Below, one piece after another: positions 44,538-48,598 of a DNA stretch of 64,000 nt (the stretch's first letter is position 1; each line of letters begins with the position of its first letter). Position numbers and translations under genes: made by a program. Location of the stretch: assembly GCA_036504215.1 (NCBI GenBank), contig DASXVO010000059.1:186001-250000 (forward strand), in the 5' to 3' direction. The stretch comes from Vicinamibacterales bacterium (GTDB lineage Bacteria; Acidobacteriota; Vicinamibacteria; Vicinamibacterales; Fen-181). The notes under the pieces are model-generated. The model saw only the letters and a list, made by a program, of their open reading frames with translations. It ran no database searches and was not told the DNA's origin.

Positions 44538-46145
44538 CTACCGTTCCGGGAACAGCACGCCGGGAGAGAGCTTGCCATCGGGGTCGAGCGCGTGCTTCAC
44601 CGCGCGCATCTCGGCAATCCCCCGCTCTCCGTACAGCTCGCGGAGGAGGGCCTGCTTGATTGCGCTCCGGCCGACGCCGTGCTCGGAGAGCGGTGAGCCG
44701 CCGAGGGCGATGACGGCGCGGCCGAAGTCGAGGATGGCCTCCTGGCCGGACGTGACATCCGCGAGCGAACGCGGGATGACATTCGGGTGCACGTTGCCGT
44801 CCGAGACATGCCCCCAGATGGCGTAGTCGAGCCCTCGCGCCTCGTAACCATCCCGGTACACCTGCAGCATCTCGCCGAAGCGTTCGAACGGCACGATCAT
44901 GTCGGCAGCCGTCTTCTGAATGCCAGGGTCCACCTGCTGCTTGGCCACCGACACGCGGTACTTGACCGCCTCGGGCGCCGCCTCGCGAAAGGCGAACAAC
45001 TGCGCGGCGCGCGCGCGGTCGCCTGGGACGGCAACTTCGACGTGATCGAGCACGCCTGCCTCATCGAGCATCCGGCAGAAACGGCCGAGCGGGGTATCGG
45101 ACGCCCCCTCGTCCAGAGCCGACGCAATCTGATCGAACGCCTCCTCGCCGGTGGCCGCGGGCGGCAATTCGACCTGGATTAGCATCGCGACGGAGGTGTC
45201 GTCGGGCAGCGCAATCCCGTTCTTGGCGTCGCTGCCATCGGCGTGCAGCATCGCGAGGCACCGGCGATCGAGCATCTCGATGGCCGACACGTCGAGCCCC
45301 TTCGGGTCCTGGCTGCCCCACGTCAGCTTCGACTGCTGCCGCAGCCTGCCGACCACGCGGAGGGCGAGCGCCTCGTCCGGGAACGGCACGAGCGCCAGGC
45401 AGGCGCCGGGCGCGGGCGTGACGATCCCGAGGGTCGCTTCGACAATCACGCCGAGCGTGCCTTCCGAGCCGATGAACAGATCGATCAGGTCCATGCCCGG
45501 CTGCGCGAAGTACCCGGCCGATCGCTTCGGAACGTCCGGCATCACGTACGTCGGCACCGGGACACGAAGCACACCGCGCGACGTTTCGATCTCGAAGATC
45601 CCGTTGCGGCTCGCAAACACCCGACCGCGTTCGATGTCGAGAACCTCGCCGCACGCGAGCACCACCGTCAACGCCTTCACCCAGTTCCGCGTGCTGCCGT
45701 ACTTGAACGTGGCGGCGCCAGAGGCATTCGTGGCAATCGTCCCGCCCACGAAGGCGCCGTCGTAGGTTGGCGCGGGCGGGTAGTAGCGACCCTGCGCGGT
45801 CAGCGTCTCCTTGAGCGTCACGAGCGGCAGGCCCGGCTGCACGCGGGCGACCTCGTCCCCGATCTCGATGATGGCCGCCATCTTCGCGGTGCTCAGCACC
45901 ACCTCGCCCCGCGGCGTGGCGCCGCCCGTCACCGACGACTGAGCCCCGATTGGCAGCACGCGAGGGTGGTCGCGAACCACGGCCGCCACCTCGCCCTCGC
46001 TCCGCGGCACGACGACGCCGGCGGCGACTCCGCCCGGATAGTGCGCCGCGTCCTCCAAATACGACTGCAGCGTGGAGGCGTCGGAATCGACCGGCGGTGA
46101 CGAGACAGGACCACGGGGGGCGCGCGCAGCGATACGATGCGACAT
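44538..46145 (-). CDS. GlcD-type FAD-binding oxidase/dehydrogenase
   Basis: The 535-residue flavoenzyme has the PCMH FAD domain (VVVPRSEGEVAAVVRDH, VLPIGAQSSVTGGATP, PTYDGAFVGGTIATNASGAATFKYGSTRNWV) and the C-terminal oxidase domain (DYAIWGHVSDGNVHPNVIPRS, GGSPLSEHGVGRSAIKQALL). These match glycolate and D-lactate dehydrogenases of the FAD-linked oxidase C family, which hand electrons to the quinone pool or a partner. No iron-sulfur partner is nearby. ATG 46145 lies eight bases after a TATCAT -10 box, suggesting a leaderless start. Substrate not determined. Confidence 0.85.
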   Translation of the reverse strand: MSHRIAARAPRGPVSSPPVDSDASTLQSYLEDAAHYPGGVAAGVVVPRSEGEVAAVVRDHPRVLPIGAQSSVTGGATPRGEVVLSTAKMAAIIEIGDEVARVQPGLPLVTLKETLTAQGRYYPPAPTYDGAFVGGTIATNASGAATFKYGSTRNWVKALTVVLACGEVLDIERGRVFASRNGIFEIETSRGVLRVPVPTYVMPDVPKRSAGYFAQPGMDLIDLFIGSEGTLGVIVEATLGIVTPAPGACLALVPFPDEALALRVVGRLRQQSKLTWGSQDPKGLDVSAIEMLDRRCLAMLHADGSDAKNGIALPDDTSVAMLIQVELPPAATGEEAFDQIASALDEGASDTPLGRFCRMLDEAGVLDHVEVAVPGDRARAAQLFAFREAAPEAVKYRVSVAKQQVDPGIQKTAADMIVPFERFGEMLQVYRDGYEARGLDYAIWGHVSDGNVHPNVIPRSLADVTSGQEAILDFGRAVIALGGSPLSEHGVGRSAIKQALLRELYGERGIAEMRAVKHALDPDGKLSPGVLFPER

Positions 46146-46159: not shown

Positions 46160-46180
46160 ACGTCCACTTGGGAGTTTGTG

Positions 46181-46600
46181 ATGACACCATTGTTCAGATA
46201 CCTGGCCGCGTTCGCCCTGTTCGCGGTGCCCGCGATGGCGGCCGGACAGACGCCCGCGGCGCCGGACCTGTCCGCGGCGCCCCGGATCACGCTGGAAGAG
46301 TTCAAGAAGATCCACGACGCCAACGCCGTCCTCGTCGTGGACGTGCGCGACGCCGAGTCGTTCGCGCAGGGACACATTCCGGGCGCCATCCTCGTGCCGC
46401 TCGCGCAGGTGACGCAGCAGTTGAAGCAACTGAAGGCGTCGCCGAAGCCCATCGTGACCTACTGTGCTTGACCGGAGGAACACACGAGCGCCCGTGCGGC
46501 GCTGGATCTCGCGTCGGCCGGTATCAGGAACGTGAAGGCATTGAAGGGCGGATGGAACGAGTGGGTCGGGAAGGGGAATCCGGTGGAGAAAGGGAAGTAG
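46181..46600 (+). CDS. Secreted rhodanese-like protein with in-frame TGA (candidate selenoprotein)
   Basis: ATG 46181 follows GGAG (46171-46174) and starts a signal peptide (FRYLAAFALFAVPAMAAGQ). The rhodanese fold follows: ITLEEFKKIHDANAVLVVDVRD, FAQGHIPGAILVPL. At codon 97 (46469-46471) there is a TGA, after which the same frame continues with clear rhodanese sequence to TAG 46598-46600, including GIRNVKALKGGWNEWV. With TGA as selenocysteine the active loop reads TYCAUPEEHTSARAALDL; relatives as I know them have CACP or CSCP there, so U replaces a Cys. A SECIS-like hairpin follows. The other reading is a nonsense mutation giving a 96-residue remnant. Full length is 139 residues, likely periplasmic sulfur transfer or redox. 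Confidence 0.7.
46469..46522 (+). promoter_or_regulatory. SECIS-like hairpin directly after the in-frame TGA
   Basis: A perfect 6-bp stem AGCGCC (46487-46492) with GGCGCT (46498-46503) closes a CGUGC loop whose G lies 23 bases after the TGA, within the usual bacterial range of about 16-37. An outer 5-bp helix ACCGG (46471-46475) with CCGGT (46518-46522) starts at the A of the TGA. The fold was judged by eye only. Confidence 0.45.
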
Positions 46601-46885: not shown

Positions 46886-48598
46886 ATGCACATTGTCGAC
46901 TGGCTGGTCATCGCGGTGTACCTCGTCTGGATCGTCTATGACGGTCTGAAGCGCACGCGCTCGGCCAACGAGATCGACGGCTACCTGCTGGCCAAGCGAA
47001 GCCTGCCTTGGTGGGCGGTCGGCCTGTCGGTGATGGCCACGCAACTGAGCGCCATCACGCTCGTCGGGACCACCGGGCAGGGCTACGCCGACGGCATGCG
47101 CTTCGTGCAGTTCTACTTCGGCCTGCCCATCGCGATGGTGATCCTCTCCCTCACCGTCGTCCCCTTCTTCAATCGGGCGCGTGTCTACACCGCGTACGAG
47201 TATCTGGAGCAGCGTTTCGACGCGAAGACGCGGGGCCTGGCGACGCTGCTGTTCCTGGGCGGGCGCAGCCTGTCGTGCGGCGTGATCATCGCGGCGCCGG
47301 CCGTCATCCTGTCGGTCGTGCTCGGATGGAATCTGACGCTCACCGTGCTGGCCATCGGCATCCCGACCGCCACCTATACGATGTTCGGCGGCGTGCAGGC
47401 GGTCGCGTGGACCGATGTGAAGCAGATGGTGGTGGTCGTGGCGGCGGTCCTCTGTGCAGTCGTCGCGCTCGTGTTCGGCCTCCCGCGGGAGGTGGGCCTG
47501 GGTGACGCGCTGCACATCGCCGGCGCGGTCGGCCGCCTCCAGACGCTCGACTTCTCGCTGAACCCCGCCGAGAAGTACACCGTCTGGTCGGGCACCCTTG
47601 CCGGCCTGTTCCTGATGCTGTCGTACTTCGGCTGCGATCAGAGCCAGGTCCAACGCTACCTGACCGCGAAATCGATCGACGAGGGACGCAGTTCGTTGAT
47701 GATCAGCGCCTTCGTGAAGATCCCGTTCCAGGCGCTCATTCTGCTGACCGGCGTGCTCGTGTTCGCCTTCTACCTGTTCACTCAGCCGCCGATGCTCTTC
47801 AACCCGGTCTATCAATCCCGGGTGGCGTCGAGCGACCGGGCGGGTGAGTACCGCGCGCTCGAGCAGGACTTCAATTCGACGTTCGAACGACGGCGCCAGG
47901 CGGCGCTCGCCTTCGCAGCCTCGAGACGGTCGGGAAACACACCCGCCGCCGATGCGGCCCGCGCGGCGTTCACCGCCGCCAACGCCAGTTTGACGGCGAC
48001 GCGGGCCCAGGCAACGACGCTCGTGCGGCAGGTGACGGGCGACTCAATCTACAACGACGTGAACTACGTGTTCCCGACGTTCGTGACGACGCGCCTGCCC
48101 ATCGGACTCGTCGGGCTGGTGATTGCCGCGATCTTCGCGGCCGCGATGTCCGCGTCCGCCGGCGAGATGAACGCGCTCGCGACGTCGACCGTGATTGACA
48201 TCTACCGCCGCCACATCCGCAAGCGGGCGCCAGATGCCCACTACCTGCTCGTCTCGAAGCTGGCCACCGGCGTCTGGGGGCTGACCGCCTGCGTGTTCGC
48301 GCTCTACGCCGCCCGCGCCGGGTCGCTCATCGAAGTGGTGAACAAGGTGGGGTCGCTGTTCTACGGCACGCTGCTTGGCGCATTCGCGCTGGCGATCGGC
48401 ACACGGCGCGCGACCGGCACTGGCGCCTTCGTCGGCATGCTCGCCGGCTTCGCGACGGTCCTCTGGGCCGCCCGCTACTCCAACATCTCCTACCTCTGGT
48501 ACAACGTCGTCGGCGCGGTCGTCGTGGTGGTCGTCGGCCTCCTGGTGAGTGCGGCGCAAGGAACTCAACCGCGCCCCGCGGTCGGGAGTCAGAACTGA
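46886..48598 (+). CDS. Sodium:solute symporter (SSS family)
   Basis: The 570-residue transporter has about 13 membrane helices and SSS features: [36 protein letters not shown] and [35 protein letters not shown]. Between helices 8 and 9 (about residues 310-385) is an Ala-rich, charged helical loop of some 75 residues ([18 protein letters not shown]), longer than in PutP. It imports a solute with Na+; the solute (sugar, amino acid or carboxylate) is not predictable. ATG 46886 follows the repeat block without an obvious promoter. Confidence 0.9.

Follow-up and report, generated by a model that had tools for sequence, protein, structure and literature searches.

A rhodanese reading frame that runs through TGA

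The gene lies in the window, the 64,000-nucleotide stretch of Vicinamibacterales DNA analysed here, whose host genome amounts to 5.9 Mb in 90 contigs. Its features and neighbours are as follows.

44538–46145, − strand: gene for an FAD-linked oxidase (FAD_binding_4, FAD-oxidase_C), divergently oriented
46170–46174, + strand: likely ribosome-binding site GGGAG, 6 nt before the ATG (from the sequence)
46181–46600, + strand: predicted gene for a CxU rhodanese selenoprotein, from ATG to TAG, 139 residues with Sec97 (frame and homologues)
46181–46240, + strand: signal-peptide-like N-terminus, MTPLFRYLAAFALFAVPAMA, picked out by eye from the translation, cleavage guessed after AMA
46289–46570, + strand: rhodanese domain, residues 37–130 (Pfam PF00581, AlphaFold2 model and PDB matches)
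46463–46465, + strand: TGT, Cys95, invariant in 41 aligned homologues
46469–46471, + strand: TGA, codon 97, read here as selenocysteine (putative Sec97; translation and homologue alignment)
46486–46504, + strand: bacterial SECIS hairpin within the coding sequence, stem 46487–46492/46498–46503, loop 46493–46497 (CGUGC)
46886–48598, + strand: sodium:solute symporter (SSF), the next family-matched gene downstream

Translation of 46181–46600 on the forward strand confirms the arrangement described in the first-pass annotation: TGA at codon 97 is followed by 42 sense codons and then by TAG. The PF00581 match to the read-through protein (E 8e-20) runs across the TGA, which disfavours a chance frame. 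AlphaFold2 returns a confident rhodanese (mean pLDDT 90.9; 94–98 in the domain) whose best PDB matches are rhodaneses, placing Cys95 directly after the active-site strand and Sec97 in the loop before helix 101–112. An ordinary annotation would end the gene at residue 96, so that the final third of the domain would go missing and the active-site partner with it.

Judged by eye from its signal-peptide-like N-terminus, the rhodanese is probably exported. The FAD-linked oxidase stands back to back with it, and a homologous neighbour does so in 14 of 42 loci examined, Sec and two Cys forms among them. This pairing hints at shared regulation; it names no substrate. A small membrane peptide suspected downstream was set aside, since translation of its coordinates begins with a stop.

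Conservation of the TGA and its hairpin

All four selenocysteine genes proposed as a check on the TGA are present in the host genome: SelA (437 bits, G000:C56), SelB (359.5 bits, C35), tRNA-Sec (66.3 bits, C43; called tRNA-SeC with anticodon tca by ARAGORN) and SelD (348.9 bits, C47). A second Rfam tRNA-Sec match above the cut-off (L003) was set aside; ARAGORN calls it tRNA-Ser(tga). The host SelD is itself a selenoprotein, with an in-frame TGA in MAKRLTEMVSCSGUASKL (L048, G000:C47:5642–6571, − strand), where CSGU (CxGU) is the usual Sec/Cys site of SelD. Within the order, strong selA accompanies the TGA form in 28 of 29 genomes, the remaining carrier (G133, fragmented and 81% complete) having a weak SelA-like match only; selA is present in 123 of the order's 149 genomes in any case, which makes the agreement weak evidence.

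Best homologues in 60 related genomes mostly contain one TGA apiece. In aligned codons, 25 close genes (the window's included) have a Cys codon at column 95 and TGA two columns on, at column 97, and so do a further 11 more distant genes of the order. Eight other homologues of the order, four of them from one genus, have TGC or TGT at column 97 (named examples L016, L020, L022, L025, L026, L054 and L055). The predicted exchange of Cys and TGA at codon 97 is therefore seen within a single column, and the proposed pairing of selenocysteine with a conserved Cys (C-x-U) holds at −2 in every one of the 25 close TGA genes. A tree of 145 rows requires at least three Sec/Cys changes, a figure resting on few columns and weak forks. 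Cys95, position 97 and Gly 123–124 are invariant in the wide alignment, with Tyr94 and Glu100 nearly so. Occurrence is patchy, four other genomes of the same genus having no gene at comparable similarity.

The frame beyond the TGA is kept for 40–47 codons in each of the 25 close TGA genes. Variation at the first, second and third codon positions is 0.31/0.24/0.40 before the TGA and 0.28/0.26/0.34 after it, so that the third position is the most variable either side of it; past the TGA, third-position change is held down by the hairpin.

This hairpin was expected from the first-pass annotation, and it is present, conserved and covarying. By the 2005 rule of Zhang and Gladyshev, a bacterial SECIS reportedly has a G as first or second base of its loop, and that loop about 16–37 nt past the UGA. 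The window hairpin agrees with this rule: its loop (CGUGC, G in place 2) lies 21 nt from the UGA. Its folding energy is ordinary for this GC-rich gene (z −0.2 over 42 nt, −1.7 over 25 nt); single-hairpin folding energy being uninformative, the evidence is one of conservation, and we used synonymous-recoding and covariation tests in its place.

In the order alignment, counted from the T of TGA, columns 18–24 pair with 30–36, and a five-base loop N-G-[U/G]-N-N lies exactly 21 nt past the UGA in 35 of 35 genes compared. The peptide TSARAA occurs in the products of 23 genes, and 21 of these spell it with one and the same string, ACG AGC GCC CGT GCG GCG, which has a chance of 6.6e-4 per gene under the codon usage of the same genes (CGT makes up 7% of Arg codons); Cys homologues use different codons at this stretch. 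A 5-bp stem whose loop has G in second place occurs in 35 of 36 Sec genes, against 2.6 expected and a maximum of 9 in 500 trials of synonymous recoding, and in none of the eight Cys genes. Three nearly identical copies among the 36 come from a single bin (G142), without effect on the picture. Two distant genes (L098 and L099) replace A-U, G-C and C-G pairs with G-C, C-G and U-A. Both sides change in four stem pairs in all, the covariation score is above all 500 shuffles, and 93% of cells pair, against 26–53% for structures slid by 1–3 columns.

The TGA might have arisen by nonsense mutation, or by an error in sequencing, within a rhodanese of the usual Cys type, leaving a pseudogene or short protein, and the TGC and TGT codons of some homologues of the order do lie one base from it. 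This TGA nevertheless recurs in another 24 close genes, as well as in independent, named genomes from many phyla; the frame past it is conserved, selection maintains the hairpin in TGA forms only, and the genome encodes the Sec machinery. Because the TGA column is shared and the hairpin conserved, a nonsense mutation is refuted in practice, and we give it next to no credence. It is just as hard to believe that TGA encodes an ordinary amino acid through a changed code, or is read through without a specific signal: the frame is indeed open once TGA is taken as a residue, but a dedicated tRNA-Sec(UCA), SelA, SelB and SelD are present, a hairpin kept at fixed distance would be needless under a changed code, and homologous genes in related genomes end in TGA.

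Comparison thus strongly supports the reading of TGA at codon 97 as selenocysteine, which we regard as very probable. The sel genes, the Cys/TGA exchange, the shared TGA and the SECIS hairpin all support this earlier proposal.

Predicted recoding and chemistry

During translation, SelB and Sec-tRNA(UCA) would bind the hairpin located 21 nt past the UGA, selenocysteine would be inserted at position 97 and the ribosome would continue to the TAG at 46598. The resulting protein would have Cys95-Ala-Sec97 on the loop that joins the active-site strand (91–94) to the helix (101–112). Cys95 would act as the rhodanese nucleophile, accepting sulfane sulfur or becoming oxidised; Sec97 could then resolve it through a Cys-S-Se-Sec bond, which an outside reductant would reopen.

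Single-domain rhodaneses such as GlpE, PspE and YgaP resemble the window protein in fold and in having the active-site Cys after strand four. The ordinary homologues aligned keep this Cys and differ in having no Cys or Sec at +2 and a pre-helix loop shorter by about two residues. Sec likewise sits in the rhodanese domain of TsoB, a rhodanese/DsbD fusion-like selenoprotein (NF045694), whose motif is instead UxxxxU and which has a further domain; the window protein scores 27.7 bits on that model, against a cut-off of 805.

Going by position and family, the protein is most likely a thiol/persulfide (or peroxide) redox enzyme of the cell envelope and not simply a thiosulfate sulfurtransferase, a proposal we hold at roughly even odds. 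The main rival on chemistry accepts the selenoprotein and sees in it a classical sulfurtransferase in which Sec97 does no more than tune the Cys95 persulfide. Retention of the rhodanese fold and the strand-loop-helix active site, together with the invariance of Cys95, speaks for a sulfurtransferase; maintenance of the C-x-U/C-x-C pair in the group, when the ordinary rhodaneses aligned have no second thiol there, speaks against it. We consider a sulfurtransferase a serious contender, though we lean away from it. The literature found describes no tested function for any CxU rhodanese, which makes these proteins a target for functional work.

Known CxU rhodaneses, distribution and fusions

The first-pass annotation had called this a candidate new selenoprotein. 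The selenoprotein part stands, and the novelty falls in part: CxU rhodaneses are already recorded in two reviews (PMC9312934, PMC13188914) and in an NCBIfam model, NF041203. Both reviews treat it as a selenoprotein subfamily of its own, under 'COG0607 form 2, CxU' (PMC9312934) and 'Rhodanese-like form 3, CxU, TKB26178.1' (PMC13188914), and the newer of the two credits Zhang and Gladyshev 2005 for the CxU rhodanese. With a rhodanese domain carrying Cys-x-Sec, the window protein falls under the review definition.

Its best NCBIfam family is NF041203 (rhodanese_LYCAU, 'rhodanese-related (seleno)protein'), which, like the CxU rhodanese of the reviews, has the same domain, Y-C-A-U-P motif, Sec position and hairpin type. 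At 89.6 bits the window protein stays below the NF041203 cut-off of 115 bits, and none of the NCBIfam sulfurtransferase models matches it at cut-off. None of the 149 genomes of the order passes the NF041203 cut-off either, the best reaching 95 bits, whereas 25 of 55 sampled proteins do. L151 of Desulfopila sp. IMCC35006, found by a pattern from the window's group, scores 168 bits on NF041203 and is 33% identical to the window protein. L151 may be the reviews' example TKB26178.1.

Since it and the whole order score below the NF041203 cut-off, the window gene is a diverged member of the known CxU kind, unnamed by the curated model. With the whole order below that model, its CxU rhodanese genes have probably been misannotated on a wide scale.

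The conserved hairpin supplies a simple, specific search pattern for such genes. Written for DNA of named genomes as YC[AST]U..E plus inner stem and loop, it matched at least 119 stretches where about one was expected (a rough estimate from information content). Two simple rhodanese-frame marks are passed by 106 of these at least 119 matches, and several others are rhodanese-like on reading. Going by submitters' names, the matches listed come from Acidobacteriota, Chloroflexota, Myxococcota, Thermodesulfobacteriota, Rokubacteria, Gemmatimonadota, Nitrospirota and others. As the pattern itself demands the hairpin, these loci serve for distribution only. Their loops include GGTCT, which is also the loop of the Escherichia coli fdhF SECIS. 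Of 297 genomes across the phylum, 61 yield a match at 1e-20, and many of these contain a single TGA.

Some CxU rhodanese domains with in-frame TGA and hairpin are fused C-terminally to Na+/H+ exchangers (L058, L062, L096 and L180); the exchanger part of L058 matches PF00999 at E 7e-38, and that of L062 was assigned by likeness. No NCBIfam model for an exchanger–rhodanese selenoprotein fusion is matched by L058 or L096, and a literature search found no exchanger–CxU rhodanese selenoprotein fusion. Other TGA-containing CxU rhodanese domains are joined to VTT/DedA proteins (L052, L082 and L123; L082 by likeness only), to a trypsin-like/HtrA-like protease (L109) and to methyltransferases (L091 and L097; L097 by likeness only).

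The CxU rhodanese domain may, tentatively, be a selenol module in broad use that extends far beyond NF041203, spanning exported single-domain forms and antiporter, VTT/DedA, HtrA-like and methyltransferase fusions, each with UGA and hairpin; we hold this as a possibility on the unlikely side of even. If true, the fusions would suggest that transport and envelope functions are under redox control by selenium.

Also common in the order are rhodanese paralogues in which Asp occupies the two active-site positions, giving YDSDP as against YCxCP/YCxUP (L060, L063, L064, L069–L071, L073, L074, L076, L077, L079 and L080), and L067, with YCSDP, is intermediate between the Cys and Asp forms. A few NF041203-like matches have an inner TAG or TAA, not TGA (L064, at G018:C176; G098:C398; G019:C32); of these, L064 is of the YDSDP kind.
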